From Phytoactinopolyspora halotolerans (lineage in GTDB: Bacteria > Actinomycetota > Actinomycetes > Jiangellales > Jiangellaceae), in assembly GCF_010550675.1 (NCBI RefSeq), contig NZ_JAAGOA010000009.1:186001-250000 (forward strand): a stretch of 64,000 nucleotides of DNA. Reading direction: 5' to 3'. The notes beneath the pieces are model-generated. The model did not search any database and was not told where the DNA came from. It was given only the letters and a program-made list of their open reading frames with translations. Positions 2,819-25,071 of this stretch are shown one piece after another (the first letter of the stretch is position 1; every line of letters begins with the position of its first letter). The position numbers and the translations under genes are program-made.

Positions 2819-5446
2819 ATGCCGTGGAACAACCTCACTCTCACCAACGTGCGCGCGTCCGAGTTCCGGGTGCCGCTCGCCCGGCGCTCGGAATCACGAC
2901 CGGACGCGCGCAACGTCCTGATCACCATCGACGCAGCGGGTCGCCGGCACGCGGCCCGTGGGTGGGGTGAGGGGCTCCCGCGTGGCCGCGCCGTCACCGG
3001 GGACACGTCATCCGGCTCCTGGCGGTTCCTGGAGGCCGCGCTCGAGCGGATCGAGGGTCGCACCCTTCGCCGCCGCCCCGCAGCCGCGCGCGCCGACATC
3101 GAGGTGCTGATGACCGAGCTCCGGGAGCTCGCCGTCGAGACCGCTCGGACGCGATCGACACGGGCGCGATCGAGTCGTACCGGGGACGACGCGGGGCCGA
3201 TCCCCTACCGCGGCATGCTGGCCGGCCTGGAGTGGGCACTGGTGGACACCGCCGCCCGAGCCGCGGACGTCACCGTCGCCGAGCTGCTCGGTGGCTCTCG
3301 CGCGCCGGTGCGCACCTGCGCCATCGTCGACGTGCGCGGAACGCGTGCCGGCGTCCGGCGCCGTCTCGCCCGGGCCGCGGGCACGGCCGCGATCAAGCTG
3401 GTCGGTGCCACCGGTGATGACGCGGTGCTGGAGGCGGCCCTTCGCGCGGCCGATGCCACGGGCGCGGGCACGCCGCTGTGGCTGGAACCGGCAACGCGGG
3501 GCGCCCGAGCGGATCAGGTGGACACGGTCAAGCTGGCACGCGCCCTGGCCGATCGGATCGCGGCCGGCGAGCTGCCGCGCGGCCTCATCCTCCAGTTGCC
3601 GGCCGGCGCGGATGCCCTGGACGAGTTCCTGGCCGCCCAAGCCGCCGTCGGCGCCGCGGACGCCGACGGCGCCGGCCTGCAGCTCGTGGCAGACGTGGCG
3701 TCAGCGGCCGACGCCACCGCCGCGGCGGAGCACGGCCTCAGGGCGGTGCACCTCGATCCGCAACGCCTCGGCGGCCCGTCCGCGGTGCTGACGCTCGTTC
3801 GTGACCTGAGTCTCCGGCCCGCGCTCTCCGTCGACGCACAGGCGTCCGACGTCAGCGCCCGCGCGCTCATCGAACTGGCCGCCGCGCTCCCGCACGTCAC
3901 GTACTGCGCCATCCCGGTCACACCGGCGTCGGCCGGGAAGGCGACCCGGGTCGGCCTGAACCCGCCGCTGACGGTGGATGCGGACGGCACGGCCACGCCG
4001 GGATCAGGACCCGGACTGGGCGGCATCCCCGTGCTGACGCCGGCGGTCTCCTACCTGACCCGGCACGCGGACGGCCCGAACACACCCGCGCGTACGGTGA
4101 CGTACGAAGGTCTGCCGGCCAACTCGTACGACGTCACGCCGCTGCTGCCGTTCGCCACCGCCGACGGGGAGATCAAGTTCCCCAGTCCGCTGATCGAGCG
4201 CGCGGCGCTCTGCCGCGGACTGAACACCGTCCGGCTCTCCCGCCGGACTCTGCTCGTCGACCATCCCGAGCTGGGCTCGCCGTTGTGTTTCACGCCGAGC
4301 AAGTCGGCCTGGACCGGGACGCCGGCGCACCGGCTCAGCGTCGATAAGGAGCTGACCCGGGCCATGTTGACCGACGCCGGGGTGCCGGTGCCGCAGGGGC
4401 GCGCGTTCGGTCCCGAGCAGATCGAGGAGGCGGTCGCCTACGCCTCCTCGCTGGGCACCCCTGCGGTGGTGAAGCCGCGCAACGGCATCCACGGCACCGG
4501 CGTCTCCACCGATCTCCGGACCGAGGAGGAAGTCCGCGCCGCCATCGCCAGCCTGGATGCCACGTCGTTCGGCGGCCGGCCTTTCATCGTCGAGACCTAC
4601 ATACCCGGTGACGACTATCGGCTGCTCGTGGTCGGCGACCGGGTGGTCTCGGTGGTGCTGAAGAAGCCGGCGTCGGTGCTCGGGGATGGTTCGGCCACCG
4701 TGACGGAGCTGGTCCTGGAGAAGAACCGCCGGCGGTTGGAGAATCCGCATACCCGCAGCTGTCTGCTCGCCTTCGACGACAATGCCAGGTACTGGCTCGG
4801 CCGGCAGGGACTCACCCCCGACAGCGTGCCCGCCGACGGTCAACTGGTCCGGCTGGGAAGTGCAGGGAACATCGCCGCCGGCGGTGACAGCATCGAGGTA
4901 CTGGATGACACCCATCCCAGCCTGCTCGATCTCGCGGTGCGGGCGGTACAGGCCATCCCCGGGCTGGATCACGCCGGGATCGACCTCATGGGCGACCACC
5001 GACTGGGCGTGGATGCTCATCCGGCGGCCATCATCGAGGTCAACGGCAATCCGGCGACCAGCTTCAACCACTTCCCGCTGGCCGGGACACCTCGCGACGT
5101 CTCCAGCGATCTCGTCCTCCGCAGCTGCGACCTGGCGGGATTCGACCCGGGTCCGGTGCGGGATCGGCTGACCGTGCGGATCACCGTGGAGGGCCGCGTG
5201 CAAAGCGTCGGCTACCGGCAGTGGTTCGCCAGCCAGGCGCAGACCCGCAAGGTGACCGGATGGGTCCGGAACCGGCCGGAAGGCGGCGTCGAGGCGGTGG
5301 TCCGGGGCCCCGCGGACGACGTGTGGGTGCTCGCCTCGTGCGCGGTCATCGGGCCACGGAAGGCGAATGTCACCAGCGTCAACACGGTGCACGTCGCCGA
5401 ACCGGACGGTGAGGTGCACGCGGGAGAGTTTCAGATCCGCGAATGA
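2819..5446 (+). CDS. Module 1 fusion protein: enolase-like / CphA-type ATP-grasp / acylphosphatase
   Basis: An 875-residue cytoplasmic fusion. Residues 1 to about 400 resemble the dipeptide-epimerase branch of the enolase superfamily (N-cap motif GEGLPRGRAVTGDT; barrel entry GLEWALVDTAARAADVTVAE then LLGGSR), but the usual metal-ligand motifs are not recognisable. Residues about 430-775 match the ATP-grasp domain of cyanophycin synthetase (VVKPRNGIHGTGVSTDL, YIPGDDYRLLVVGDRVVSVV), with the metal-ligand motif IEVN at E740-N742. Residues about 783-875 are an acylphosphatase with the phosphate-binding loop GRVQSVGYR and both catalytic residues, R800 and N818. ATP-grasp ligases make peptide bonds through acyl-phosphates, so the fused acylphosphatase could hydrolyse stray intermediates (inference). 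The gene overlaps the next one by ATGA and has two paralogues downstream. Substrate unknown. Confidence 0.85.
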   Translation: MPWNNLTLTNVRASEFRVPLARRSESRPDARNVLITIDAAGRRHAARGWGEGLPRGRAVTGDTSSGSWRFLEAALERIEGRTLRRRPAAARADIEVLMTELRELAVETARTRSTRARSSRTGDDAGPIPYRGMLAGLEWALVDTAARAADVTVAELLGGSRAPVRTCAIVDVRGTRAGVRRRLARAAGTAAIKLVGATGDDAVLEAALRAADATGAGTPLWLEPATRGARADQVDTVKLARALADRIAAGELPRGLILQLPAGADALDEFLAAQAAVGAADADGAGLQLVADVASAADATAAAEHGLRAVHLDPQRLGGPSAVLTLVRDLSLRPALSVDAQASDVSARALIELAAALPHVTYCAIPVTPASAGKATRVGLNPPLTVDADGTATPGSGPGLGGIPVLTPAVSYLTRHADGPNTPARTVTYEGLPANSYDVTPLLPFATADGEIKFPSPLIERAALCRGLNTVRLSRRTLLVDHPELGSPLCFTPSKSAWTGTPAHRLSVDKELTRAMLTDAGVPVPQGRAFGPEQIEEAVAYASSLGTPAVVKPRNGIHGTGVSTDLRTEEEVRAAIASLDATSFGGRPFIVETYIPGDDYRLLVVGDRVVSVVLKKPASVLGDGSATVTELVLEKNRRRLENPHTRSCLLAFDDNARYWLGRQGLTPDSVPADGQLVRLGSAGNIAAGGDSIEVLDDTHPSLLDLAVRAVQAIPGLDHAGIDLMGDHRLGVDAHPAAIIEVNGNPATSFNHFPLAGTPRDVSSDLVLRSCDLAGFDPGPVRDRLTVRITVEGRVQSVGYRQWFASQAQTRKVTGWVRNRPEGGVEAVVRGPADDVWVLASCAVIGPRKANVTSVNTVHVAEPDGEVHAGEFQIRE

Positions 5447-6489
5447 ACGACCATTCCAGCCCCAGCGAACCACGGATGAGCCGTATGTCTTCCACCATTG
5501 CCGGCCTCGGGCAGTTCCTCGCCGACCGTGTGCCGCGTGCCGCCGGTCTCTCCTCAGCCGTGTTCGAGCACGCCGCACACCAACGCGGCCTGCCCACCCG
5601 ACGGCTCGACCGCAACCTGCTCGTCGTCGAGCTGCCCAGCGGGCACACGATTCCGTTCCATGGCCTGAACGGACCGGACACGAGTGAGACCGGCCGGTTG
5701 ATGCGCAGCTGCCCGGACGCGCTACGCGGACTGCTCCACACCCGTGGCGTGCCCGTTGCCGCGCACGCCACATTCGCCCCGACCCAGCGGAATCAGGCGG
5801 AACGCTACGCGGAGCGGATCGGCGCGCCGGTCACTGTGTCGCCGGCGCGCATGGCTCCCGGGCGCGGGCGTACGTCCGGCGTCCAGGGTGATCCCGCGTT
5901 CCGGGCCGCGTGGCGCAACGCCGTCGACGCCTACCGGCGCAGCGCCGGCGGGGCTGTCCTGGTCGAGGAACACGTGCCCGGCACCCGTCTGCACCTGTTC
6001 GTCGTCGACGAGCGGGTGGTCGCCGGCACGCGCATCGGCGACGGCGGCGACATCGGCACGGCGCTCCTCGCCCGCGACCATCCGATCCGCGCCGTTGGTA
6101 CGGACCTCGTCGATATCACTGATCGGCTCGATCCGGGGCTGGGTCGCCTCGCGGTCCGGGCCGTGGCGGCTCTTCCCGGCCTCGCCTACGCCGGCGTGGA
6201 CGTGCTGGTGTCGGATGCCGCCTCCGGCGACGAGCCCGGCGACCAGCCCCGCCCCGAACCCGGCGCACGCGGCGATGGTCTCGTCATTCACGTCGATTGT
6301 TCCCCCGAACCGGTCGCGCTCTTCCCCACGCACGGCGCGGCGCACGACATCGCCGATGCCGTCATCGAGCACTATGTGCGAGCGCCGCGCTGGGCGAAAG
6401 CTCGCGCGATATCGCACCGGTCGCGGCAGCCAGATGGCCGCCAGATCGATGGCGCCGCGCTGGAACCACTGCTCCGGCACCGTTTGTGA
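5443..6489 (+). CDS. Module 1 partner: degenerate ATP-grasp-like protein
   Basis: A 348-residue protein whose ATG overlaps the stop of the fusion gene (ATGA), so it is translationally coupled to it. It aligns with the N-terminal part of the fusion's ligase domain (SAVFEHAAHQRGLPTRRLDRN against SPLIERAALCRGLNTVRLSRR) and then with an ATP-grasp fold (VLVEEHVPGTRLHLFVVDERVV). The IEVN metal-binding motif is replaced by IHVD, so the ligand glutamate is lost, and the segment corresponding to GDG..TVTEL is missing. The C-terminus AVIEHYVRAPRW is shared with the two paralogous partners. It is probably a non-catalytic subunit or carrier-binding partner of the fusion enzyme; this is inference. An internal ATG near codon 12 is an alternative start. 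Confidence 0.8.
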   Translation: MNDHSSPSEPRMSRMSSTIAGLGQFLADRVPRAAGLSSAVFEHAAHQRGLPTRRLDRNLLVVELPSGHTIPFHGLNGPDTSETGRLMRSCPDALRGLLHTRGVPVAAHATFAPTQRNQAERYAERIGAPVTVSPARMAPGRGRTSGVQGDPAFRAAWRNAVDAYRRSAGGAVLVEEHVPGTRLHLFVVDERVVAGTRIGDGGDIGTALLARDHPIRAVGTDLVDITDRLDPGLGRLAVRAVAALPGLAYAGVDVLVSDAASGDEPGDQPRPEPGARGDGLVIHVDCSPEPVALFPTHGAAHDIADAVIEHYVRAPRWAKARAISHRSRQPDGRQIDGAALEPLLRHRL

Positions 6490-6492
6490 GCG

Positions 6493-6498
6493 TATCGT
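6493..6498 (+). promoter_or_regulatory. -10 element of module 2 (leaderless start)
   Basis: TATCGT ends exactly 7 nt before the ATG at 6506, within the 16 bp that follow the stop of the previous gene. There is no Shine-Dalgarno sequence, which fits a leaderless transcript beginning at the ATG. Confidence 0.6.
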
Positions 6499-6505
6499 TA
6501 TCACA

Positions 6506-9082
6506 ATGCGCAGCACGGCCACGACGATCGATCGCGCCTACGCCCTGGAATTCCGGGTGCCTTCGTCACATGCACCACGGACACGCCGACCTTACGCACA
6601 TAACACGGTATTTCACCTCGAGTCGGGCGACGAACCGCCCATCACGGGTGCGGGCGAGGCGGCCCCATATCGGCCCGTCTTCTCGCACCACTCGTCGGCA
6701 CAGCCGGCCGCGTTCGTCGACGTCGCCGTCGAGCACCTCAACGGCGCGCGCATCCGGCGACGACCCAGGCAGGCCATCGCTGATATCCGCACCATCACGC
6801 ACCAGCTTGCGGCTCTCGCTGATGAGGCGAGTGACCCGGCTGAATCGGCGCCGCCGGCCGGTGTGCTGGCGGGTGTCGAGGCGGCGCTGCTCGACCTCGC
6901 TGCCCGGGCGGCGAAGACCACCACGGCCTCGCTGCTGGGCGGTCGCCGGCAGCCGGTCTCCACGTATCGCATGGTCGACGCCGAGCGGCTCATCCAGGCG
7001 CCGGAGTCGACGCGAGCAATTCGTGAGCGAGGCCCTGGGGTAAAAGTCACCGGCGTCGCCGACCGGGAGACAGCACTGACCGTGACCTCGGAACTGGCCG
7101 AAGTCACGCGCACCGGGTCGACCGTCTGGTTGGAGCTGACCGCCGTTCTGCAGCCGGCGGAGATCGAGAAACTGGCGGAAGAACTCGCGCACCAGGTCAA
7201 CGCGGGGGAACTCGGGCCTCAGCTGGTGGTCGAGCTGCCGGCCGGCACCGAGGACACCGACATCGTCGACGTGCAGTCTCAGCTGGACGTGCTCGCGCCG
7301 GGCCCGGGCGGCCACGCCGGCGTCCTGGTGATGCCGCAGGCAGGCTCGATACCTCAACTGCACGATCTCGCCGCCCGCGGCGCGCGGGCGGTATGCGTGG
7401 ATCCGTTCCGCCTCGGCGGCATGCTGACCGTGTGCTCGCACCTTGGTCGCCTTCCCGGTAACCCGCGCAGGCGCCGCATGGGCCTGTCGGTTCCACCGGA
7501 GGTGTCGGCCATCGGTGTCCGTGCCGCCGCCGAGCTCGCCGCCGCACTCCCCCGGCTCGACTATTTCTGTGTGCCGACGGCCGACGCCGAACGCGCCCAG
7601 ATCCAGCCGGCGGAGACCGACGACGAGAACGGACGGCTCGCCGCGCCCGCCGGGCACGGCATCGGCGCCGCTCCGGATTATGCCCGGGTGGTGCGGCACC
7701 TCACGCGGCAGGTCGACGCCTCTCCGGCGACGACCACACGCCCCACGTATGAGGGCATGCCGCTGAACAGCTTCGACAACGATGCCCTCGCACCGTTCTT
7801 CTCCGCCCGCGGCAAGCTCAACTCCGCCAGCGTTCTGCTCGAACGCGCCGCCCTCACCCGCGGCTTGAACACCACCCGCACGTCGCGCGCGTTCTTCTTC
7901 GCCGAGCACGACGACCTCGACCGGCCGCTGTTCTTCACCCCGAACAACACCTCGTGGTCCACCCTGCCGCCGCACCGGTTGACCGCGGACAAGGAGCTGA
8001 CCCGCCGTATCTTGCTCGACCACGGCGTGCCCGCTCCCCGGGGCGCGGCCTTCGATCCCGGGCAGGTCGACGAGGCCGTCGCCTTCGCCGCCTCGCTCGA
8101 TGCCGCCGTCGTCGTCAAACCCAAGAAGGCCAGTCACGGCGACGGAGTGTCGACCGATCTGCGATCCGCGCACCAGATCCGCCGTGCCATCGAATCCCTG
8201 GACGCGGCCGGATTCGGTGATCGCCAGTTCCTGGTCGAAGAACACGTTCCGGGCAACGACTACCGCTTCCTGGTGGTCGGCGACCGGGTCGTCTCGGTGG
8301 TGCTGAAGCGGCCGGCGGCCGTGGTCGGTGACGGGAGATCGACCATCACCGAACTGGTGCTGCAGAAGAACCGCTGGCGGCTGGAGAACCCGCACGCTCG
8401 AGGGTGCCTGCTGGAGTTCGGCCCGGACGCCATGGCGTGGCTGTCCCGCCAGGACCTGACGCCGCAGAGCGTGCTGGAAGCCGGCCGCACCGTTCGCGTC
8501 GGGAGCGCCGGCAACATCGCGACCGGCGGCGAGAGCATCGAGGTGCTCGACGAGACCCACCCGAGCCTGCTGGATCTCGCGGTTCGCAGCGTGCGGACGT
8601 TCCCTGGGCTCGATCACGCCGGCATCGACATGATGGGCGACCACCGGTTGGGCCCCGACCGACACGTGGCCGCGATCCTGGAGATCAACTCGATGCCGGC
8701 GACGAGCTTGAACCACTTCCCCATGTTCGGTACGCCGCGCGATGTCTCCAGCGACATCGTGCTGCGCAGCTGCGCGCTCGAGGGCTTCCATCCCCCTGCC
8801 ACGAGTGATCGTCTCTCGGTACGCATGCTGATCGAGGGCCGTGTACGCGGCGTCGGCTATCGGCAGTGGTTCGCCGAGCTCGCCGCCGCCCGCGGCGTCG
8901 CCGGATCGATCCGCAATCTGTCCACCGGCCCGGTCGAGGCATACGTGTCCGGAAAGTCACTCGACGTGTGGGTCGTCGTCTCGGGCGCCTTCCTCGGCCC
9001 GCGCAACGCGATGGTCCACCGGATCTCGACCACGCACGTCGACGAGGTCCATACCACCGGTCGATTCGAGGTACACCGATGA
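6506..9082 (+). CDS. Module 2 fusion protein: enolase-like / CphA-type ATP-grasp / acylphosphatase
   Basis: An 858-residue paralogue of the module 1 fusion with the same domain order. The enolase-like part (about 1-390) keeps the GVEAALLDLAARA..LLGGRR signature but again lacks an evident metal triad. The ATP-grasp part (about 430-765) has VVVKPKKASHGDGVSTDL and the metal-ligand motif at E726-N728 (LEIN). The acylphosphatase part (about 769-858) has GRVRGVGYR with R786 and N804. The start was placed at 6506 because the N-terminus aligns with those of modules 1 and 3 (ALEFRVPSS) and a -10 element lies 7 nt upstream. The reading frame stays open for another 760 bp upstream, but that part is an antisense-type shadow of the previous gene. 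It overlaps the next gene by ATGA. Confidence 0.85.
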   Translation: MRSTATTIDRAYALEFRVPSSHAPRTRRPYAHNTVFHLESGDEPPITGAGEAAPYRPVFSHHSSAQPAAFVDVAVEHLNGARIRRRPRQAIADIRTITHQLAALADEASDPAESAPPAGVLAGVEAALLDLAARAAKTTTASLLGGRRQPVSTYRMVDAERLIQAPESTRAIRERGPGVKVTGVADRETALTVTSELAEVTRTGSTVWLELTAVLQPAEIEKLAEELAHQVNAGELGPQLVVELPAGTEDTDIVDVQSQLDVLAPGPGGHAGVLVMPQAGSIPQLHDLAARGARAVCVDPFRLGGMLTVCSHLGRLPGNPRRRRMGLSVPPEVSAIGVRAAAELAAALPRLDYFCVPTADAERAQIQPAETDDENGRLAAPAGHGIGAAPDYARVVRHLTRQVDASPATTTRPTYEGMPLNSFDNDALAPFFSARGKLNSASVLLERAALTRGLNTTRTSRAFFFAEHDDLDRPLFFTPNNTSWSTLPPHRLTADKELTRRILLDHGVPAPRGAAFDPGQVDEAVAFAASLDAAVVVKPKKASHGDGVSTDLRSAHQIRRAIESLDAAGFGDRQFLVEEHVPGNDYRFLVVGDRVVSVVLKRPAAVVGDGRSTITELVLQKNRWRLENPHARGCLLEFGPDAMAWLSRQDLTPQSVLEAGRTVRVGSAGNIATGGESIEVLDETHPSLLDLAVRSVRTFPGLDHAGIDMMGDHRLGPDRHVAAILEINSMPATSLNHFPMFGTPRDVSSDIVLRSCALEGFHPPATSDRLSVRMLIEGRVRGVGYRQWFAELAAARGVAGSIRNLSTGPVEAYVSGKSLDVWVVVSGAFLGPRNAMVHRISTTHVDEVHTTGRFEVHR

Positions 9083-10176
9083 GCGCGCCGTCGATCGAAC
9101 AGTTCGTGCACGACAACGTCCCGGGCCGGTGTTCGCTGGCGTCCGCGCTCATCGAGCATGCCCTGATCAACCGCGGGTACGAGGTGCAGCGGTACAACCA
9201 GAACGTGGTGACGGTGCCTCACCCGTCAGGGTTGATCGCGTTCGACCACCTCAACGGTCCCGACTCCAGCGTGGTGGCGCGCTCGGTTCGCGCGCTCCGG
9301 GACGTGCAGCAGCTCGTCCTCGCCCGCGCCGGCGTGCCGGTACCTGCGTGGGCCACGTTCTCCGCCGGGCAAACAGAGCAGGCCGCCCATTTCGCCGCCA
9401 CGGAGCTCGGCTGGCCCGTCGCCGTCCGGCCGGCCCGCCTCGCGCCGCCGAAAGGCGCGAGCGATCGGGTCAGCACGGACGAGGAGTTCGACGCCGCCTG
9501 GCGACGAGCCATGGCCGCCTACGACGGCCGCACCCGGCGACGCGTCGTCATCGTCGAGGAAGCCGCCCTCGGAGCCCGGGTCCACGTCTTCGTGGTCCGC
9601 TCTTCAGTCGTCGCCGCCACTCAGGTCGTGCCCGCGCACGTCGTCGGTGACGGCCAGGCCAGCGTCGCGGAGCTCATCGACCGCAGAAACGTCCAGCGGG
9701 CCCGGAACCCGTTCCTGCGGCGGCATCCGGTACCACGACGTCTTCGCCGGCTGGACGCGCTCCAGGCGGCGGGGCGTGCGCTGACCGACGTCCCCGCGGC
9801 CGGCGAACGGGTCGAACTCGGCACCAGTCCCACCGTGGTCTCCGGCGGCGACCTGGTGGATGTCACCGAGCAGCTGCCGCCGCACCAGCGCGAACTCGCC
9901 GTCCGCGCGGTGTCGGTGCTGCCCGGGCTGGAGTATGCGGCCGTGGACATCGTGGACGCGGGCGCCGACCGCTGCGTGGTGACTCGAGTGGACGGCTTCC
10001 CCCAACCATGGGCGCACTTTCCGTCCGTCGGTGCGCCGCGCGATGTGGCCGGAGCGATCGTCGAACATTACCTGGGCGCGCCGCGCTGGATCGCCACCAG
10101 GCAGACGGCCACAACGCCCCCCGCCGACGGCTCGCTACGCGTCGAACCCTTGCTGTTGTCGTCCGCGCCCGGATAG
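9079..10176 (+). CDS. Module 2 partner: degenerate ATP-grasp-like protein
   Basis: A 365-residue protein whose ATG overlaps the stop of the module 2 fusion. It has the same plan as the other partners: an N-terminal SALIEHALINRGYEVQRYN region, an ATP-grasp-like body (VVIVEEAALGARVHVFVVRS) and the C-terminal motif AIVEHYLGAPRW. Unlike the other two it keeps the VVGDGQASVAELIDRRN segment. The IEVN motif of active ATP-grasp enzymes reads TRVD here, again lacking the glutamate. It is probably an accessory or structural subunit of the module 2 ligase. Confidence 0.8.
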   Translation: MSAPSIEQFVHDNVPGRCSLASALIEHALINRGYEVQRYNQNVVTVPHPSGLIAFDHLNGPDSSVVARSVRALRDVQQLVLARAGVPVPAWATFSAGQTEQAAHFAATELGWPVAVRPARLAPPKGASDRVSTDEEFDAAWRRAMAAYDGRTRRRVVIVEEAALGARVHVFVVRSSVVAATQVVPAHVVGDGQASVAELIDRRNVQRARNPFLRRHPVPRRLRRLDALQAAGRALTDVPAAGERVELGTSPTVVSGGDLVDVTEQLPPHQRELAVRAVSVLPGLEYAAVDIVDAGADRCVVTRVDGFPQPWAHFPSVGAPRDVAGAIVEHYLGAPRWIATRQTATTPPADGSLRVEPLLLSSAPG

Positions 10177-10213
10177 ATCACCGAATGCAGTAGGCGGATC
10201 GCCGCCCCGCCGG

Positions 10214-10219
10214 TATGGT
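10214..10219 (+). promoter_or_regulatory. -10 element of module 3 (leaderless start)
   Basis: TATGGT ends exactly 7 nt before the GTG at 10227. It sits in a 50-bp gap after the module 2 partner gene and matches the arrangement before modules 1 and 2. It also decides the start: the ATG at 10215 lies inside this hexamer and is therefore unlikely to be used. Confidence 0.6.
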
Positions 10220-10226
10220 GACGCTC

Positions 10227-12800
10227 GTGCCCAGCAGCATCGAGATCGCGCGGGTCCGAGCCATCGAACTCCGTGTCCCCTCGTCCAAGGGGTCCCGGCC
10301 CGGTGACGGATACGCTCACAACGTCGTCATCACCCTCGACGCCACCGTCGACGGCCGGGCCGTCGGCGGGGCCGGGGAAGCGTGCCCGCGTGGCCGCACA
10401 CTGACCGGCGACACCGGCCGCGGGTCCTGGCGCTTCCTCTCCGCCGCGCTCAAACGGTTACACGGGGCGCGCGTGCGTACCGACCCGGGTGCCGTCTCCG
10501 CCGACGTCTCGCAGCTGATCGCCGATCTGCGGGCGCTGGCCCGCCGCATGGTGAAGGTCGCCATGCCGGGTGAGCCGTACCGGGGCACCATGGCGGGCCT
10601 CGAGGCGGCGCTGCTCGACCTGGTCAGCACGGCGGAAGGGGTGCCGCTCGCCCACGTGCTGGGAGGCAAGCGGAGCCCGCTCGACATCGTCGGGGTGGTC
10701 GCCGCCCGGAGTATCTCCCAGGCAGAGCAGCGGATCGCACCCCACGTCGGACGGACGACGGTCAAGCTGATCGATCTACCCGACCGCACGACTGCCCTGG
10801 ACGTGGTCTCGGCCGTCGGCTCCGTGGCCGGTCCGGGCGTGCCCGTCTGGCTGGAATTCGCCGCCGAACTCGAACGTGCGGAAACCGACAAGCTCGTCGA
10901 GGCCCTCGCTGACCGTATCGGCAGCGGTGCGCTACCGCCGCATGTGCTGGTACGGCCGTTCGTCACCGCCGACCATGCGACGCTGGCCGAACTGCAGCGA
11001 TACGCAGACGTGCTGGCGCCACCGAAGCACGACCGGCCGGGGATCGTGGTCCTGACCGGTGCCGCATCGGTCGAGGACATACGTGCGGCAGTGCTCGGCG
11101 GCGTGCGCGGTGTCGAGCTCAACCCGGGTCGGCTCGGCGGTGTGCTCCCCGCCTTGGACCTCGCGCGTTCGCTCGACACCGGCGGGAGGATCCGGGTGGC
11201 GGTCTCCGCCGATCCGCACGCCTCCGCCGTCGGCACCCGTGCGGCGGCGGAGCTCGCGGCCGCACTCCCCCGCCTCGACTACCTGGCGTTGCCCGACGCC
11301 TCGATCGCCGGCACCGTCCAGACCGACCCCGAGCTGAGCCTCGACGATCGTCACCGTCTCCTTCCCGGCGAGCGAAGCGGTATCGGCGGACGCGTCGTCC
11401 TGGCACCGGCCGTGCATCACCAGACTCGGTACGCGACCGGGTCAGGCTCCGCCGCCCCGGCGCCGACGTACCAGGGGATGGCGGCCAACGAGTTCGATCT
11501 AGACACGATGATGCAGTTCGAGTTCTCAGACGGTACCGTCGATACCGCAAACCCGCTGCTCAGCCGCGCAGCATTGGCATTCGGGCTGAACACGACCCGG
11601 CTCGCCCGCAGCGTTGTGCTGGCACACCATCCGCAGCTCGCCGAGCCGATCGGTTTCGCCAGCCGCCGTTCCACCTGGACCGGGCTGTCCACCCGCGCCG
11701 TCGTCGACAAGAAGGACCTGACCAAGAAGGTCCTCGGCGCCGCCGGCGTCGCCGTACCGCGGGGCGAGGTGTTCAAACCCAGGCAGGTCGAGCGGGCCGT
11801 GCGGTATGCCCTGTCGCTCGGCGCGCCGGTGGTCGTCAAGCCCCGCGGTGGATCCCACGGCAGGGGTGTGACGACCGACCTGCGCGACGAGAGCGACATC
11901 CGCAACGCCATCGCCATGCTGGCCGGCGCCTCGTCTGCCCGCAGCCCGTTCGTGGTCGAGGAACACGTCACCGGCGAGGACTACCGGTTTCTGGTCGTCG
12001 GCGATCGCGTCGTCTCGGTGGTGCTGCGCCGACCCGCATCCGTCGAGGGCGACGGCAGGTCCTCGGTGCTTGATCTGGTCATCCAGAAGAACCAGCACCG
12101 GCTCGCGAACCCGCAGATGCACGGCTCATTGATCGAGCTGGGCGACAATGCCCGCTACTGGCTCGGTAAACAGGGCATGACGGTGGACAGCGTGCCCGGC
12201 GCCGGGCAGCTCGTGCAGCTGGGCAGCGCGGGCAACATCGCCAACGGCGGGGACAGCGTCGAAGTCTTGGACGAGACACACCCCAGCCTGCTCGACCTCG
12301 CCGTCCGCGCCACCTTGGCGGTGCCCGGCCTCGACTATTCCGGCGTCGACCTCATCGGCGACCACCGGCGTCCGGTCGACGAGCACCGCGCCGTCGTCAT
12401 CGAGGTGAACTCCAACCCGGGCACCGACCTGAACCACTTCCCCATGTTCGGCACCCCGCGCGACGTCTCCACCGAGCTGGTTCTGCGCCAGTGTGAGCTT
12501 GCCGGCTACCGGCCGGCACAGATCCTCGACGAGCTCAACGTCCGGATCGAGATCTCCGGGCGGGTCCAGGGCGTCGGCTACCGGAACTGGTTCGAGCAGC
12601 TCGCGACCGGCCGAAACGTCGCCGGTACCATATGCAACCTTCCGTCGGGGCAGGTCGAGGCCTATGTCACCGGACGGCTGGACGACGTGTGGCTGGTCGT
12701 GTCGAAGGCGATCGACGGGCCGCCGCGGGCCCGGCCATACCGGGTGGTGACCACCCACGTCGGCGCTGTCACCCCCACCGACCGGTTCGAGGTGCGTTGA
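10227..12800 (+). CDS. Module 3 fusion protein: enolase-like / CphA-type ATP-grasp / acylphosphatase
   Basis: An 857-residue third paralogue, starting at GTG 10227 (VPSSIEIARVRAIELRVP) by alignment with its sisters and by the -10 spacing. Enolase-like part about 1-390 (GEACPRGRTLTGDT, GLEAALLDLVSTAEGVPLA). ATP-grasp part about 430-765 with VVKPRGGSHGRGVTTDL and E726-N728 (IEVN). Acylphosphatase part about 769-857 with GRVQGVGYR, R786 and N804. The block SAGNIANGGDSVEVLDETHP is nearly the same in all three paralogues, so the ligase active sites are the best-conserved part while the enolase-like parts diverge most. The stop TGA shares one base with the ATG of the next gene. Confidence 0.85.
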   Translation: MPSSIEIARVRAIELRVPSSKGSRPGDGYAHNVVITLDATVDGRAVGGAGEACPRGRTLTGDTGRGSWRFLSAALKRLHGARVRTDPGAVSADVSQLIADLRALARRMVKVAMPGEPYRGTMAGLEAALLDLVSTAEGVPLAHVLGGKRSPLDIVGVVAARSISQAEQRIAPHVGRTTVKLIDLPDRTTALDVVSAVGSVAGPGVPVWLEFAAELERAETDKLVEALADRIGSGALPPHVLVRPFVTADHATLAELQRYADVLAPPKHDRPGIVVLTGAASVEDIRAAVLGGVRGVELNPGRLGGVLPALDLARSLDTGGRIRVAVSADPHASAVGTRAAAELAAALPRLDYLALPDASIAGTVQTDPELSLDDRHRLLPGERSGIGGRVVLAPAVHHQTRYATGSGSAAPAPTYQGMAANEFDLDTMMQFEFSDGTVDTANPLLSRAALAFGLNTTRLARSVVLAHHPQLAEPIGFASRRSTWTGLSTRAVVDKKDLTKKVLGAAGVAVPRGEVFKPRQVERAVRYALSLGAPVVVKPRGGSHGRGVTTDLRDESDIRNAIAMLAGASSARSPFVVEEHVTGEDYRFLVVGDRVVSVVLRRPASVEGDGRSSVLDLVIQKNQHRLANPQMHGSLIELGDNARYWLGKQGMTVDSVPGAGQLVQLGSAGNIANGGDSVEVLDETHPSLLDLAVRATLAVPGLDYSGVDLIGDHRRPVDEHRAVVIEVNSNPGTDLNHFPMFGTPRDVSTELVLRQCELAGYRPAQILDELNVRIEISGRVQGVGYRNWFEQLATGRNVAGTICNLPSGQVEAYVTGRLDDVWLVVSKAIDGPPRARPYRVVTTHVGAVTPTDRFEVR

Positions 12801-13756
12801 TGACCACCCAGATGCAGGAGTTCCAGCGGTTCCTGGCGGAGAACGTCCCGCACCGGTGCAGCCAGACCTCGGCGATGATCGAGTTCGCCGCGCAGTGTCG
12901 CGGGCTGGAGACCGACCGGTACGACAAGAGGATTCTCCTGGTCACCTTCCCCGAGGCGACGGTGCCGTTCGTCGGCCTGAACGGACCTGACACCTCTCGC
13001 ATCGGCCATCTGCTGTGCACCTACGCGGACGAGCAGCGGCAGCTGTGGAAGAAGCAGGGGCTCCGCACCGCCCGGTATGGGGTCTTCGCCACGAGCCAGC
13101 CCACCCGGGCCGAGCGGTTCGCGGCGAATCTGGGGTGGCCGGTGACGGTCCGTCCGGCACGTTTCGATGGCGCGGACGGGGTGACCACGCACGTCCGTTC
13201 CGCCGAGGAGTTCCGGGCGGCATGGCAACACGCCCGGGACGCATACGTCGATCACGTCGGTACCAAACGGATCCTGGTCGAGCAGCGGCCGGCCGGCGAG
13301 GCGCTCAGCTTCTATGTGGTGAGTGGCCGCGTCGTCGCCGCCACGCACCGACCGTCTCCCGAGGTCGCCGTCGACGTCACGGAAGAGGTGGACCCCCGGC
13401 TGGCGACCGTCGCGATCGACGCGGTCGACGCCCTACCTGGGCTTGTCCACGCCGAGGTGACCCTGATCGCTCCGCCGCCCGCGGTCGGATCCGCCGCAGC
13501 CGGTCCCGGATCCGATCCCGCGGCTGACGCCGCGGAAGTGCCCGAGGACGAGCCGTTCTACGTGCTCTACGGCGTGGACTGTCTTCAGGCGCCCGCCGGT
13601 CAGTTCCCGACCGAGGGGCAGCCCCGGGACATCGGCGGCGCGATCATCGACCATTACCTCAGCGCGCCGCGCTGGCGGATTCCGCGCACCATACCGCACC
13701 AGCCGATCACCGCGGGTCGACCGGCACCTGGCTGGATCGTCCCCGCCGGTGCTTAG
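12800..13756 (+). CDS. Module 3 partner: degenerate ATP-grasp-like protein
   Basis: A 318-residue protein, the shortest of the three partners, with its ATG overlapping the preceding stop (TGATG). It has the shared N-terminal region (SAMIEFAAQCRGLETDRYDKR), a shortened ATP-grasp-like body (ILVEQRPAGEALSFYVVSGRVV) without the GDG segment, and the C-terminal AIIDHYLSAPRW. The metal-ligand motif reads YGVD in place of IEVN. It ends the six-gene array and runs convergently into cysH, with a hairpin between them. Confidence 0.8.
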   Translation: MTTQMQEFQRFLAENVPHRCSQTSAMIEFAAQCRGLETDRYDKRILLVTFPEATVPFVGLNGPDTSRIGHLLCTYADEQRQLWKKQGLRTARYGVFATSQPTRAERFAANLGWPVTVRPARFDGADGVTTHVRSAEEFRAAWQHARDAYVDHVGTKRILVEQRPAGEALSFYVVSGRVVAATHRPSPEVAVDVTEEVDPRLATVAIDAVDALPGLVHAEVTLIAPPPAVGSAAAGPGSDPAADAAEVPEDEPFYVLYGVDCLQAPAGQFPTEGQPRDIGGAIIDHYLSAPRWRIPRTIPHQPITAGRPAPGWIVPAGA

Positions 13757-13836: not shown

Positions 13837-14532
13837 TCAGTGGATGCCGCACTCCGTCTTGGCCTTGCCCGCCCAGCGGCCCGCCCGCGGATCCTCTCCG
13901 TCCGACACGGGTTGCGTGCACGGCTCGCATCCGATGGAGGCGTAGCCGAGCTGCTGCAGCGGATTGACCAGGATGTCGTGCTCGGCGATGTAGTCGTCCA
14001 CCTGCTCGTCCGACCAGGTCGCCAGCGGATTCACCTTGACCTTCTTGCGCCGCGGGTCCCAGCCGACCACCGGAGCCGCGGCACGGCCCGGGTTCTCCGC
14101 CCGCCGCACCCCGCTGGCCCACGCGGTATACGGGCGGATCGCGCGGTCCAGCGGGAACACCTTGCGCATCGCGCAGCACAGGTCCGGGTACGTCTCGTAC
14201 AGCTTGCCGTAGCTGGCCTCGTGCTCGGGGACCGTCAGCGGATGCCCGACCGTCTCGACGGTGATGTCGTAGGCCGAGGCGATGGCGTCTCGGGTCCCGA
14301 TCGTCTCAGCGAAGTGGTAGCCCGTGTCCAGGAACAGCACGCGGATGCCGGGTACCGCCTGTGACGCCACGTGGCAGAGCACGCCGTCGGCCATCGAGGC
14401 GGTGAGCACGAACGCGTCCCCGAACGTCTCGTGTGCCCAGCGGACCACGTCCTGTGCCGGCGCGTCCTCGAGATCGCGCCCGGCCGTTGTGGCCATCCGC
14501 TGGAGTTCGTCGGTGGGAATGCGGGTCGTCAT
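13837..14532 (-). CDS. cysH: Phosphoadenylyl/adenylyl-sulfate reductase (CysH)
   Basis: A 231-residue cytoplasmic reductase that converts an activated sulfate nucleotide (APS or PAPS) to sulfite. The PP-loop-type nucleotide-binding region is in the N-terminal half (LTASMADGVLCHVAS), and the C-terminus has the catalytic cysteine motif KTECGIH. The cysteine pairs in LCCAMRK and GCEPC are those that bind a [4Fe-4S] cluster in the assimilatory APS-reductase type, so APS is the likelier substrate. It is the last gene of a three-gene operon and its ATG overlaps the stop of the PLP enzyme gene upstream. No sulfite reductase or ATP sulfurylase gene is nearby, so the sulfite may be used locally, or the other assimilation genes may lie elsewhere. 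Confidence 0.93.
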   Translation of the reverse strand: MTTRIPTDELQRMATTAGRDLEDAPAQDVVRWAHETFGDAFVLTASMADGVLCHVASQAVPGIRVLFLDTGYHFAETIGTRDAIASAYDITVETVGHPLTVPEHEASYGKLYETYPDLCCAMRKVFPLDRAIRPYTAWASGVRRAENPGRAAAPVVGWDPRRKKVKVNPLATWSDEQVDDYIAEHDILVNPLQQLGYASIGCEPCTQPVSDGEDPRAGRWAGKAKTECGIH

Positions 14533-16637
14533 CTACTGCCTCCATCGAGATCCACATGCTGCAGGATCAGGCCAAGCTTGCGGAGCGCATCTGCGACGTC
14601 GGCCAGTGTCCGGTCCACGCGCTCAATCCATAGTCGGCCACGAGTGTGGTCGAACACAATCTCTGACACCGTCGTCGCACCGATCGCTACCCGCAGACCG
14701 CCGATCCATTCACCGTCCTGCTGGTGGATCCGAACCGGCTGGCCGAGCTGGAAGGTCCGGCCCAGGACGGCGTCGTCGGACGGCACCAGGCCGCGCAGGT
14801 CCTGGGCGAGCATCCGGTAGACCTTCCGGCCCTGGCCCATGGTCAACGGTGTGCCGTCCGGGCGCCGCGCCAGGAAGGTGAAGATGGTCGGCAGATCGTC
14901 GAGGCCGCGCGTGTCCGGCTGGGGAATCGCCGTGTACGGACTCTCCACCAGGCTGATCTGGGGTGTGTCCTCGAGGATCTTCCGCAGCCCCGCGACCAGC
15001 AGACGCAGAACCTCGTCCCGGATCTCCGGCGAAGCGTTGTGGAACGAACGCATCTCCGCGAGCGCCGCTTCCCACCGCAGCAGCAATCCGGCGTTGGGCC
15101 CGCGTCGCGCGACCGCGCGTAGGTCACTCAGCGCCTCCGGCACGTCAGCGCGGGTCAGATAGTCCGCCATGCCGGCCGGGAGGTCCCGGCCCGCCGCCAG
15201 GCGTCCCGCGACCGTCGACGGGAGGATCACCGCACCGGAGAACGGCGGGCCGCCGAAGAACTTCGACCCGGTGACGATCACCATGTTGCCGTCCCGCAGA
15301 TGCTGCACCGCCGTGTTCTGGTCGATGCGCATCTGCGCGGCGTCCACCACCACGTCCAGCCGATCGCCGAACCGCTCCCGCCAGCGCAGCACCGTCTCCC
15401 GGCGCGGCAGCCGGATGCCGGTCTTGGAGCCTTCCACCACGTGCACGAGGACCCGGCCTGTGTCGACCTGTGCCTCGATCGCCGCTTCGACCGCCGCCTC
15501 GACCTGTTCGGGGGGCAGCATCTCACCGTTCGGGTCGCGCAGATCGACAATGGAGGTCGTGACCTTCGCCGGGTCGAATCCGCCGATCGGCTCCCCCGCC
15601 ACGCACGGGTTCCCGGACGGCAGCCGTCCGCAGAAGTGCCGGCCGGCAGCGGCGTAGGTGCTGCCGCTGCCGATCTCGTACTGGCCGACCACGACCGAAT
15701 GCACCGGCTCGTCCGCGCTCAACGCGGCCAGCAACGCCACCAGCTCGGCGTCGGTGCCGGACGGGGTGAAGACCACCTCGGCATCGCCCCGTACGCCGAG
15801 CGCCGCCAGCAGTGTCCGCCGCATCACCGTGGTGTGCTCGTCCACACACCGGCCGAGCTCGTAGCCGAGTGCGGCCTCGATCAGCCGGCGCCGAAGCCGG
15901 CTCGCCGCGTCGAACCCACGGGTCGTCGGCGACGACGCCGTACATGAGCCCAGCAGGCTGGTCCACGGGGTCGGGCTCGGCGAGATCCCGTACGAGTTCA
16001 CACCGCCGTGCCAGTCGATCGTCTGCCGGGTATCGCCGCCGCTGGCCAGCAGCACCTCGGTGGGCGCGGCGAACGGCAAGGCCCGGGCGGCCCGGTCGAT
16101 CTCGCTGTCCGGGCACGGGTCCAGCCCGTCGCGTTCGGCCACGAACTCCGCGATCCGCGCGGCGATCGCCTGGGCCGATGCCACATCATCGAGCCGGTCG
16201 TGCAGGTCCAGCAGCTCGGTCGCGTTGCCCGCAAGCGGCGAGAACGCGTTGAACGCCGCCGGCTCGCCGCGGGCGGACAGGCTGGTCGCGCCGTATGCCA
16301 GCGCGGTGGCGTGGGCGAGGATGCGGTGCGCCCAGTCCGGCGTGCGCAGCGTCTCGGGCCCGTCCACGGCGCTGCTGGCGGCCGTCCGGGTCAACTCGAT
16401 CGTCTCGCGCAGAATCAGCGCCGACCCGGTGACCGTCGCCGCCCGGTCCGGACGCAGGGTCAACGTCGTGCCGTCACACACGAACGGCCGGGACTGCGCC
16501 GGGTCGATACGGACCGACAGTCCGGCCAGCCGGGCACCGATCTCGGGCAGCCCGCACGCTTCGATCACGGGCCATGGAACCGGTGGTGTCTCCCCCGAAC
16601 TCTCCAGCACCGCCGGGGCTAAGGATGCATCGGTCAC
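14529..16637 (-). CDS. PLP-dependent enzyme, fold type I (class V-like), unusually long
   Basis: A 702-residue protein. The PLP fold-type I core lies in roughly residues 190-560: a small-residue phosphate-binding segment (TPSGTDAELVALLAALS), a cofactor-ring aspartate motif (VVVDAAQMRIDQ) and the Schiff-base lysine K459 in VTGSKFFGGPPFSG. The motif spacing is like class V aminotransferases and cysteine desulfurases, but the protein is nearly twice their length, with an about 190-residue N-terminal region I do not recognise and a C-terminal domain. The gene overlaps both neighbours by ATGA, so it works with the group II enzyme and CysH. Reaction unknown; a desulfurase, lyase or aminotransferase are all possible. 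Confidence 0.75.
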   Translation of the reverse strand: MTDASLAPAVLESSGETPPVPWPVIEACGLPEIGARLAGLSVRIDPAQSRPFVCDGTTLTLRPDRAATVTGSALILRETIELTRTAASSAVDGPETLRTPDWAHRILAHATALAYGATSLSARGEPAAFNAFSPLAGNATELLDLHDRLDDVASAQAIAARIAEFVAERDGLDPCPDSEIDRAARALPFAAPTEVLLASGGDTRQTIDWHGGVNSYGISPSPTPWTSLLGSCTASSPTTRGFDAASRLRRRLIEAALGYELGRCVDEHTTVMRRTLLAALGVRGDAEVVFTPSGTDAELVALLAALSADEPVHSVVVGQYEIGSGSTYAAAGRHFCGRLPSGNPCVAGEPIGGFDPAKVTTSIVDLRDPNGEMLPPEQVEAAVEAAIEAQVDTGRVLVHVVEGSKTGIRLPRRETVLRWRERFGDRLDVVVDAAQMRIDQNTAVQHLRDGNMVIVTGSKFFGGPPFSGAVILPSTVAGRLAAGRDLPAGMADYLTRADVPEALSDLRAVARRGPNAGLLLRWEAALAEMRSFHNASPEIRDEVLRLLVAGLRKILEDTPQISLVESPYTAIPQPDTRGLDDLPTIFTFLARRPDGTPLTMGQGRKVYRMLAQDLRGLVPSDDAVLGRTFQLGQPVRIHQQDGEWIGGLRVAIGATTVSEIVFDHTRGRLWIERVDRTLADVADALRKLGLILQHVDLDGGSR

Positions 16638-17986
16638 GTGTCGTATCGGCCTTCCAGCTGGTCAAGGACGGCTGCCGCGACGTCCGCTCCCGCCTCCAGA
16701 CGAGAGTTGACGCCGTACAGGGTGGCGCGGGTGTCCCCGGTGCCTGCCGCGGGCGCGCCGTCCACCGCCCAGCCCAGGTCATCAAGGAACTCACCGACCA
16801 CCGGAACGTGCGTCGGGTTGACGATCAGATGGATGCTGTCGGGATCGCGCTGCCGGTCGATCCGCCACCCCCGGGTCTCCAAGCGGTCAGCCACGGCCAT
16901 CATGTCCACCGAGTCCGAGCCGACGGCGAACACGCTGATCGGCGGTTCGCCGACGACGTGCAGCCCGGGGATCGCGCGGATCCCTTCCTGTAGCCGGTCG
17001 GTCGCGTCGAACACTTTGCGGAAGATCTCCCGGTAGCCGGCCCTGCCCTCGAACGTGATCGCCGCCCAAGAGCCGGCGATCGCGCCGCCGGAGCGCGTGC
17101 CCAGCAGCGTCGGCGAGGCCAGGATGCCGCCCGGCCAGTCCGTATATGCGGCGAACTGAAAGCGGCGCAGGCGGCGATCGGCGTACAGGATGCTCGACGA
17201 GCCCTTGGGCCCGTAACCGTACTTGTGCATATCTGCCGTCATCGACGTCACACCGGGCACACTGAGGTCGAACGGCGGAACCTTGCGTCCGAGTTCCCGG
17301 GCGAACGGCAATGCGAAGCCGCCGATGGTGGCGTCGATGTGCAGCCCGATGCCGCGCTCCTGCGCGACCACGCCGAGGTCCTCGATCGGATCGACGACGC
17401 CGTACGGAAAGCACGGGGCCGACGCGCAGGCCACGATGGTGGACTCGGTGATGGCGGCGGAGAACGCCGCGGGGTCCGCACGGAAGGTGTGGTCGACCGG
17501 CACCGGCACCGGGCGCACGCCCAGCAGGTCACCCGCCTTCAGAAACGCCGGATGCGCGGTGACCGGGACGACCATCTCCGGCGCGGTGATCTCCGGCCGC
17601 TCGGCGCGTGCCCGGTCCCGGTAGGCCTTGACCGCCAGGATGATGCTCTCGGTACCACCTGACGTCATGGTTCCCCCGGCGACCTGGGGGTCCGCGCCGA
17701 GCAAGTCGAGCAGCATCCACACGACCTGCTTCTCCATGGTGGCGATGCTGGGGAACGCCGTCGGCCCGAGGATGTTCTCGGAGGCGAACTCGCGATACGC
17801 GTCGTGCACGATCTCGTCGTGCTCCTCGCCGGCCCAGTAGATCAGGCTCCAGATGCGGCCACGACGCCAGTCCACATCGTCGTCGCGGAGGGAACGTAGC
17901 CGCGCGCGCAGCTGGTCCGCCGGTACGCCGTGCTCGGGAAAAGGCACGTACGGCTCGCCGGACTCCGATTCTGCAGAGAACGTCAT
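16634..17986 (-). CDS. PLP-dependent group II decarboxylase / sphingosine-1-phosphate-lyase-like enzyme
   Basis: A 450-residue PLP enzyme, first in the three-gene operon. It resembles the sphingosine-1-phosphate lyase branch of the group II decarboxylase family: AGGTMTSGGTESIILAVKAY near residue 120, the aspartate segment LHIDATIGGF, and the PLP lysine K255 in DMHKYGYGPKGSS. The start at 17986 has an AGAGGA-type ribosome binding site; an upstream in-frame start at 18040 is less likely. In bacteria this family also includes amino-acid decarboxylases and phosphoamine C-C lyases, and nothing here decides between them. Paired with a second PLP enzyme and CysH, it may produce an amine or an aldehyde building block. 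Confidence 0.8.
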   Translation of the reverse strand: MTFSAESESGEPYVPFPEHGVPADQLRARLRSLRDDDVDWRRGRIWSLIYWAGEEHDEIVHDAYREFASENILGPTAFPSIATMEKQVVWMLLDLLGADPQVAGGTMTSGGTESIILAVKAYRDRARAERPEITAPEMVVPVTAHPAFLKAGDLLGVRPVPVPVDHTFRADPAAFSAAITESTIVACASAPCFPYGVVDPIEDLGVVAQERGIGLHIDATIGGFALPFARELGRKVPPFDLSVPGVTSMTADMHKYGYGPKGSSSILYADRRLRRFQFAAYTDWPGGILASPTLLGTRSGGAIAGSWAAITFEGRAGYREIFRKVFDATDRLQEGIRAIPGLHVVGEPPISVFAVGSDSVDMMAVADRLETRGWRIDRQRDPDSIHLIVNPTHVPVVGEFLDDLGWAVDGAPAAGTGDTRATLYGVNSRLEAGADVAAAVLDQLEGRYDT

Positions 17987-18209
17987 CGATGTAGGTCCTC
18001 TTCCTTCATCGCCCGCGCCGACCGCATCACCGATGCGCACGGCACCCTCCCGACTCTCACCGGCCCGCCGGTCGACAGCCGCTTAGACGGGTCGGTTATA
18101 TCTTCGTTACCTAGCCGAAACCATACCTCTCGCCACGATTCGATCCAAGCTCCGCCCGCGTTGCGGAGTGTGTCGTAGCCTGGCATCCCGACGCAGGAGA
18201 CGACCGAGG

Positions 18210-21714: not shown

Positions 21715-22287
21715 TCATGCGGGAGCGAGTGCGCCGACCAGCCGTGCCGTCGATCCGCGCAGCGTCGCCGCGCTCCCTTCCGGCAGCGGCACGATCGACG
21801 CCGCTCCGTAGTCCGACGCGATCGAACGCAGCCGCGAGAACAGGTACTCCCCATACGAGTCGCCCGGACTGGCCACCGCGAGTTCGTGCGCGCGCATCAC
21901 CCGTTCCACGACGTAACCCCGGCTGCGGAACGGGGCGAAGTCGGCGCTGTCGATGACGAACAGCGGCCGGAATGAGCCGGTCATCATCTGGGCGTACTCG
22001 AACTCCCGGGCGATGCGCTCGGCTTCGCCGTCTGTCAGCCCGGTGGCGACCACCACGACGACCGGCAGCCGACGTGCGCCGTCCTGCACGAAGTACCGCC
22101 CGGGCCGGAACGCCATCGAGCGGTGCTGCCCGGATGTGCGTGGAGCGGCGGAACCGCTCAGCCGTCTCGCGATCCGCATCGCCAGGTCAGAACGGCGTAG
22201 CGCCCGGCCTGCGAGCCGCCGCGCGGCGCGGTACCCCGGCGTTCTGGTCCGCAATGGCCCCGCCTTCGCCGATGTCGTAGAACTCAT
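21715..22287 (-). CDS. Conserved partner protein of a glycosyltransferase (paralogue of 25072-25503)
   Basis: A 190-residue protein starting at an ATG that overlaps the stop of the glycosyltransferase gene (ATGA). The N-terminal 60 residues are basic and Arg/Ala-rich; the rest is an alpha/beta domain (RLPVVVVVATGLTDGEAERI, FRPLFVIDSADFAPFRSRG, SYGEYLFSRLRSIASDYGA). The same pattern (VRVLVVAVG, VLLLNSPDVAPVRRRGFVYE, SYDTYVQQRVIEMVRVYEP) occurs in the 143-residue protein next to the other glycosyltransferase, so the two glycosyltransferase-partner pairs arose by duplication. I do not recognise a named family; it probably assists or regulates surface-glycan assembly. Confidence 0.7.
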   Translation of the reverse strand: MSSTTSAKAGPLRTRTPGYRAARRLAGRALRRSDLAMRIARRLSGSAAPRTSGQHRSMAFRPGRYFVQDGARRLPVVVVVATGLTDGEAERIAREFEYAQMMTGSFRPLFVIDSADFAPFRSRGYVVERVMRAHELAVASPGDSYGEYLFSRLRSIASDYGAASIVPLPEGSAATLRGSTARLVGALAPA

Positions 22288-24548: not shown

Positions 24549-24566
24549 GGTGGATGGCTCCTGCCG

Positions 24567-25049
24567 CTAGAGCCGGGTCCGGGTGGCGTTGCCGACCGCC
24601 GGCACAGGCGGTTCCACCGCACCGACGACGCTGGTCGGAGCGGTCTCCGCGGGGACGGTGCCCGCCGAGCCGTCCACGTCGGCGCCGCCGTCCAACCGGC
24701 TCGCCAGGTCATCGATCGCACTCTCCAGCCGCTGGTTGTTCGCCGAGAGGAGGCGCGCGAGCTGTTCGAAATGCTCCTGCGGCACCTCCACCGCGGCCGG
24801 CGCGTCCAGGAGGTCCCGGTCGTCGCCGAGCATCTGGTACACGCGTCGGCGGAAGGTGTCGATCTTCACCGCCAGACGGCGGCTCTCGCGGTGCTGCACT
24901 GCCGCGACGAACAGCACCGCACCGATGATGACGGCGGTCTGTCCCGCCATCGCCAGGCTGGCGGTCGCGGCCTCCGCCAGCAGCCATACCGCCGCGACCG
25001 CGACCACCCCTGCGGCCGCGGCGGCGAGCTTGAGTCGTCCGAATCTCAT
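24567..25049 (-). CDS. Small membrane protein with coiled-coil tail
   Basis: A 160-residue protein. Two hydrophobic segments at the N-terminus (LAAAAAGVVAVAAVWLLAEA and MAGQTAVIIGAVLFVAAV) are followed by a charged helical stretch (HRESRRLAVKIDTFRRRVYQ) and a region likely to form a coiled coil (EQLARLLSANNQRLESAIDD), then a low-complexity Pro/Val tail. The ATG at 25049 has a GAGGAG site 10 nt upstream; an ATG at 25067 is possible. It lies between the two glycosyltransferase units. The TM-plus-coiled-coil plan recalls the N-terminus of the methyltransferase at 27740-28846, so both may dock to the same membrane complex. Confidence 0.65.
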   Translation of the reverse strand: MRFGRLKLAAAAAGVVAVAAVWLLAEAATASLAMAGQTAVIIGAVLFVAAVQHRESRRLAVKIDTFRRRVYQMLGDDRDLLDAPAAVEVPQEHFEQLARLLSANNQRLESAIDDLASRLDGGADVDGSAGTVPAETAPTSVVGAVEPPVPAVGNATRTRL

Positions 25050-25071
25050 CGTGTCTGCGCTCCTCATCGTC

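Follow-up and report, generated by a model that had tools for sequence, protein, structure and literature searches.

The window analysed here is a stretch of 64,000 nucleotides from the genome of the salt-loving actinobacterium Phytoactinopolyspora halotolerans (contig NZ_JAAGOA010000009.1, positions 186,001–250,000). Near its start lies a locus, referred to as locus I, of three gene pairs, each made up of a large multidomain protein (A) and a smaller partner (B). The first-pass annotation had proposed a tandem triplication in the order A1-B1-A2-B2-A3-B3, and this was confirmed: six intact, co-directional open reading frames (ORFs) occupy 2819–13756 of the + strand. Pairwise identity among the A copies is 48–49%, far above chance.

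2819–5446, + strand: A1, 875 aa; degenerate enolase-superfamily domain (aa 5–415), active-type ATP-grasp domain (aa 440–770) and acylphosphatase domain (aa 782–873)
5443–6489, + strand: B1, 348 aa; pseudo-ATP-grasp partner overlapping A1 by 4 bases; alternative start at 5476/5485 possible
6506–9082, + strand: A2, 858 aa; domain order as in A1; acylphosphatase Arg and Asn retained
9079–10176, + strand: B2, 365 aa; pseudo-ATP-grasp with the central insertion loop still present
10215–12800, + strand: A3, 861 aa; domain order as in A1; first branch in the locus-I clade
12800–13756, + strand: B3, 318 aa; pseudo-ATP-grasp overlapping A3 by 1 base

The coupling of each B to its A by a one- or four-base overlap, also claimed before, can be read at the junctions: ATGA at A1/B1 and A2/B2 (4 bases) and TGATG at A3/B3 (1 base). 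Of the three overlaps, that of A1/B1 is the least certain because B1 may start ca. 35–40 bases further on. The pairs are separated by 16 bases (B1-A2) and 38 bases (B2-A3). Given these overlaps and short gaps on one strand, the region from A1 to B3 is likely a single transcript of ca. 11 kb.

Domains and active sites of the A and B proteins

The three-domain build of A was supported by profile searches (Pfam/NCBIfam) and by an AlphaFold model of A1 (mean pLDDT 85.3, pTM 0.82) submitted to Foldseek. The acylphosphatase family PF00708 was matched in A1–A3 (E 4e-12 to 1e-15), and the ATP-grasp domains were matched by cyanophycin-synthetase models (E 1e-56 to 1e-63), with CphA recovered by the A1 model (E 5e-24), as expected from the kinship to cyanophycin synthetase first noted. 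Whole-protein scores of A1–A3 against TIGR02068 and NF010623 were 177–215 bits, under the cut-offs of 850–877. The Mur-ligase-like domain had been described as absent, and the profile search found no match to one in A1–A3; a C-terminal acylphosphatase is in its place.

Of the A-type proteins examined, nearly all retain the complete ATP-grasp catalytic set (K, K, E, R, K, N, D, E, N), and A has the two lysines and Mg ligands expected of a cyanophycin synthetase. The catalytic Arg and Asn of the acylphosphatase are kept in A1 (R800 and N818) and at equivalent positions in A2 and A3, as in most A-type proteins. In the A2 of P. endophytica (L036:10035–12452), both residues, retained in the A2 of the window, are replaced (by L and Q).

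For the enolase-like region, the fold that had been assigned stood and catalysis did not. MR_MLE_C was matched below the Pfam cut-off in A2 and A3 and was undetected in A1, while homologues pass the cut-off. The A1 model aligned with dipeptide epimerases and mandelate racemase/muconate-lactonizing enzymes in Foldseek with template modelling (TM) scores of about 0.6–0.79 by target length, including the dipeptide epimerase 3q45 (E 5e-15, TM 0.79). In an alignment of 15 enolase domains, interpreted against solved structures, the last-strand lysine is D, D and N in A1–A3, and the metal-ligand positions hold mixed residues; A1–A3 thus lack the set expected of an active epimerase (KxK, D/E/D metal ligands and last-strand Lys). 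A working epimerase was ruled out with the loss of the last lysine, and from these positions we take the enolase domain of A to be a pseudo-enzyme.

In a profile comparison, B aligned with the ATP-grasp portion of A (hhalign probability 100, E 4e-44), which upholds its earlier description as an ATP-grasp-like partner, but not a ligase activity. All nine aligned locus-I B proteins carry other residues in place of the two ATP lysines, the DYR arginine and the E/N metal ligands, and the central loop retained in B2 is missing from most of them. These replacements mark B as a catalytically dead pseudo-ATP-grasp, and a second active ligase was ruled out by the loss of the catalytic lysines and metal ligands. 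With B and the enolase domain of A both dead, each pair would contain one ligase active site and one acylphosphatase, not two ligases. B408, the equivalent partner in other clusters, has degenerated less: it mostly retains K, K, E, R, D and E, and N is replaced by S, A or G.

Copy number, related clusters and neighbouring genes

The locus-I A-B pair is carried by five genomes. Each of the six genes has an ortholog in P. endophytica at 54–81% identity, and the dN/dS between the two genomes is 0.16 for A1, 0.37 for A2, 0.25 for A3 and 0.29–0.41 for B1–B3, so all three pairs are maintained by purifying selection. A chance or assembly artefact was ruled out by the occurrence in five genomes and by dN/dS values of at most 0.41. 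All three A genes of P. endophytica (G002 C1:142319–152158) are frameshifted within the enolase part; these are probably draft errors, as its genes in the second cluster described below are split too.

In the tree, all nine A sequences of locus I group together (support 100/100); A3 splits off first and then A2. In three close relatives only one pair, of the A1 type, is present, with the same neighbouring pyridoxal phosphate (PLP) enzyme genes, and their A copies group with A1 (support 93/94 and 93/92). The tree, with moderate support, suggests an old triplication followed by loss of A2-B2 and A3-B3 in several species; rapid divergence of A2 and A3 could also account for it. An independent tandem expansion of A was found in Ilumatobacter. 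I. nonamiensis (L058:1685–15155) encodes four tandem enolase/ATP-grasp/acylphosphatase proteins with no recognisable B partner between them, and several of the acylphosphatase sites are lost. No full-length A was found in 295 other sampled Actinomycetota genomes, so the system is rare. A plasmid search returned cyanophycin synthetases and other ATP-grasp genes, and no full-length A. One Agrobacterium plasmid gene (L112:6068–11050) encodes a 1660-aa protein with two ATP-grasp domains and is located next to a type I secretion system.

A second, larger cluster with an A and a degenerate partner is found in the same genome (contig 22, roughly 9–45 kb). It also encodes an enolase-CapA-ATP-grasp fusion, a 1666-aa ATP-grasp-acylphosphatase-CapA-ATP-grasp protein and further ATP-grasp genes, and its A-plus-partner core lies beside genes for PGA_cap (CapA), an Asp/Glu racemase, an Asn_synthase-like protein, ATPgrasp_ST, glycosyltransferases and UDP-glucose dehydrogenase. 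The orthologous cluster of P. alkaliphila has matches to PGA_cap, Asp/Glu racemase, Asn_synthase, ATPgrasp_ST and glycosyltransferases. In the second cluster, the enolase of the CapA-fused paralogue still has D, E, D, the last lysine and one of the two KxK lysines, with Arg in place of the other; it is a plausible candidate for the active epimerase of the pathway. In the P. alkaliphila fusion (L061:13903–17517) the epimerase residues are near-complete, unlike those of A.

Related loci were found in Haloechinothrix, Ruania, Nesterenkonia, Ilumatobacter, metagenome-assembled genomes, Halomonas, Sulfitobacter and halo- or alkaliphilic Bacillota. Among 35 related loci, several of them from one genus or species, the neighbours counted were B408 (21), ATPgrasp_ST (19), glycosyltransferase (17), CapA (16), racemase (13) and UDP-glucose dehydrogenase (12). 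In Sulfitobacter and Nesterenkonia alkaliphila the sole PGA_cap gene of the genome is inside the cluster, and the Sulfitobacter cluster further holds Mur ligases, UDP-glucose dehydrogenase, a weak Wzz match and an ABC-2 exporter. The TupA-like ATP-grasp PF14305 is encoded in clusters of Halomonas, Virgibacillus and Alteribacter, the latter two (Bacillota) adding glycosyltransferase, ABC export or PGA_cap genes.

Next to locus I, on the opposite strand and converging on B3, is an operon of three genes with successive 4-base overlaps (longest starts assumed).

13837–14532, − strand: CysH, an extra assimilatory APS/PAPS reductase (adenosine phosphosulfate/phosphoadenosine phosphosulfate), the second copy in the genome; 4-base overlap with the end of the following gene
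14529–16637, − strand: PLP700, a large fold-type-I PLP enzyme of a rare family and of unassigned activity, which co-occurs with the locus-I pair
16634–18040, − strand: PLP lyase/decarboxylase, MfnA-type by NCBIfam; nearest PDB entries are sphingosine-1-phosphate lyases (E 1e-99)

PLP700 is present in all five genomes with the locus-I pair and absent from one genome of the same genus that lacks it; beyond the A-B genomes it was found, as a partial copy, in 1 of 394 genomes of the class. No PDB relative of PLP700 was found by sequence, and because its AlphaFold model was poor (pLDDT 58), the Foldseek list was used solely to call fold type I. Two cysH genes are present in four of the five A-B genomes, the extra one being adjacent in three, and one or none in all other genomes searched. 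The remaining A-B genome, P. halophila, has a single cysH located elsewhere, and the link to CysH is therefore not universal.

In Sulfitobacter, a PLP700 fused to a ParB domain is encoded with CysH beside an enolase-like gene, an ATP-grasp-acylphosphatase, a partner and PGA_cap, and in a second Rhodobacterales genome PLP700 is found amid genes read from sequence as nucleotide-sugar and sulfotransferase-like. Fusion of PLP700 with a ParB-like domain occurs in two Rhodobacterales genomes; the ParB-like fold is shared with free-serine kinases. Relatives of PLP700 on Sinorhizobium plasmid(s) are directly downstream of nonribosomal peptide synthetase genes. We infer that the operon supplies a special, perhaps sulfonated, building block; the extra CysH and the ParB-like fusion are indirect hints of cysteate or taurine synthesis. 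No literature on a taurine- or cysteate-amide capsule was found in the papers searched.

Farther along the − strand of the window are glycosyltransferase-like and UDP-glucose dehydrogenase genes.

21715–28720, − strand: glycosyltransferase-like genes and small partners, homologues of GT759 and P182 in the second cluster, together with a methyltransferase
33880–35190, − strand: UDP-glucose dehydrogenase, which provides a uronic-acid precursor; also near the A-B locus in P. halophila

The region at 21715–28720 is a possible continuation of a surface-polymer locus. A sulfotransferase gene at 29273–29995 adjoins genes for a methyltransferase, an acyltransferase-3/SGNH protein and UDP-glucose dehydrogenase, and this neighbourhood is possibly a locus for a sulfated or acylated polysaccharide. 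The second cluster, the surface-polymer context of the relatives and the co-occurring PLP/APS-reductase operon were not part of the first-pass annotation.

Proposed function and comparison with known systems

A-B would belong among the ATP-grasp poly-amino-acid ligases. By analogy with the related clusters, it probably works as a heteromeric amide ligase in the synthesis of an anionic poly-amino-acid/glycan polymer on the surface of halo-alkaliphiles, similar to teichuronopeptide/CapA polymers. The ATP-grasp of A, with its catalytic residues in place, would activate a carboxylate as an acyl-phosphate and join it to an amine. The dead B, whose pairing with A is suggested by gene coupling and conservation, would shape or regulate A, and the fused acylphosphatase, which has retained its active site, could clear stalled or wrong acyl-phosphates, either as editing or as chain release. 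The dead enolase barrel may bind a peptide or sugar-acid substrate, as its dipeptide-epimerase ancestry would suggest. The A-B family would make or decorate anionic poly-amino-acid/glycan surface polymers. In the window, the three diverged pairs may differ in specificity and work in parallel, probably on a building block that comes from the adjacent APS-reductase/PLP/PLP operon.

Several observations weigh against this interpretation. The surface-polymer role at the window locus is carried over from homologous clusters, and the A-B locus of the window itself has no adjoining CapA, racemase or ABC exporter. PGA_cap is not diagnostic, because control genomes such as E. coli, not known for poly-glutamate, also carry it. 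The named hosts are mostly halophiles or alkaliphiles, as judged by name alone and with no statistical control. The substrate of A-B could also be a small molecule.

A soluble small peptide or secondary metabolite (a dipeptide antibiotic, siderophore or osmolyte), with the amine given by the PLP operon and the polymer context of the relatives representing another use of the ligase family, is an unlikely product, though it would agree with the separate operon at locus I, the lack of a directly adjoining exporter and the peptide-synthetase context of PLP700 in Sinorhizobium. It fits poorly with the PLP700 genes of Rhodobacterales, which in Sulfitobacter adjoin, with CysH, the enolase-like, ligase, partner and PGA_cap genes and in the second genome lie among nucleotide-sugar and sulfotransferase-like genes, and with the glycosyltransferase-like and UDP-glucose dehydrogenase genes in the window. 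An intracellular storage or compatible-solute polymer resembling cyanophycin is still less probable: cyanophycin synthetase is the nearest characterised ATP-grasp, but A lacks the Mur-ligase half, no cyanophycinase or isoaspartyl dipeptidase was seen adjoining, and the relatives accompany CapA, glycosyltransferases and export genes.

The idea, raised initially, that each A-B pair performs one of three successive, obligatory ligation steps on one product gains something from the tree, which hints with moderate support that the copies are old, and from the maintenance of all three. It is nevertheless very doubtful, because the three relatives with a single pair keep an A1-type copy and the same PLP genes, and the separate expansion in Ilumatobacter has more copies. 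The most far-reaching form of the surface-polymer interpretation is a speculative one – a new class of assembly system in halo-alkaliphiles, in which an ATP-grasp/acylphosphatase and a pseudo-ATP-grasp would build an acidic polyamide without PgsB/CapB and with built-in editing of acyl-phosphates, the three Phytoactinopolyspora pairs attaching a sulfonated amine or amino acid (cysteate/taurine type) made by the operon.

No paper on an enolase/ATP-grasp/acylphosphatase fusion was found in the open literature searched, in line with the earlier remark that no system of this build was described. Work by Iyer and colleagues in 2009 on ATP-grasp amidoligases may have predicted related gene neighbourhoods, and novelty is subject to that. 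The build – a dead enolase, an ATP-grasp and an acylphosphatase both judged live by their residues, and a dead ATP-grasp partner – implies an unusual enzymology, with acyl-phosphate-forming and acyl-phosphate-destroying domains sharing one chain.

The cyanophycin synthetases CphA1 and CphA2 (TIGR02068, NF010623; PDB 7wae, 7ta5, 8fxi) resemble A in the ATP-grasp domain, in which the catalytic residues are conserved. Where CphA has its N-domain and Mur-ligase domain, however, A has an enolase-like N-terminal domain and an acylphosphatase; A is also coupled to the pseudo-ATP-grasp B, and a cyanophycinase context was not seen. Dipeptide epimerases and muconate lactonizing enzymes (3q45, 1jpm, 3r0k) share the fold of the N-terminal domain of A, and the CapA-fused paralogue of the second cluster aligns with these enzymes by sequence, but A has substitutions at the last lysine and at most of the metal ligands. 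ATPgrasp_ST (PF14397) is encoded by a gene of its own both in Halomonas and in the second cluster, while A and B are best matched by cyanophycin-synthetase ATP-grasp models. The Pgs/Cap synthases (PgsBCA/CapBCA) have in common with many related clusters the PGA_cap (PgsA/CapA) domain. The ligase of A, however, is an ATP-grasp and not a CapB-type Mur ligase, and the Mur-ligase domains in the Halomonas and Sulfitobacter clusters are extra.

Teichuronopeptide consists of poly-gamma-L-glutamate and polyglucuronate, and tupA is involved in its synthesis (2004 review, PMC8153356). B. halodurans has no pgs/cap genes, an unidentified ATP-grasp synthetase has been suggested, and the pgs/cap-free synthesis of teichuronopeptide-type poly-gamma-L-glutamate in alkaliphilic Bacillus has been described as open (2013 review, PMC3815933). 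The related clusters of Bacillota and Halomonas resemble this system (TupA, PF14305) in their TupA-like genes and similar hosts, and an acidic poly-glutamate with uronate would be the expected product; no TupA was seen at locus I or among the window genes scanned. A-B may be part of the machinery for poly-amino-acid wall polymers whose enzymes were never identified. The genes named here make the question of teichuronopeptide-type synthesis testable, because in halo-alkaliphiles an array of ATP-grasp(-acylphosphatase) ligases clusters with TupA-like, CapA, racemase and export genes.

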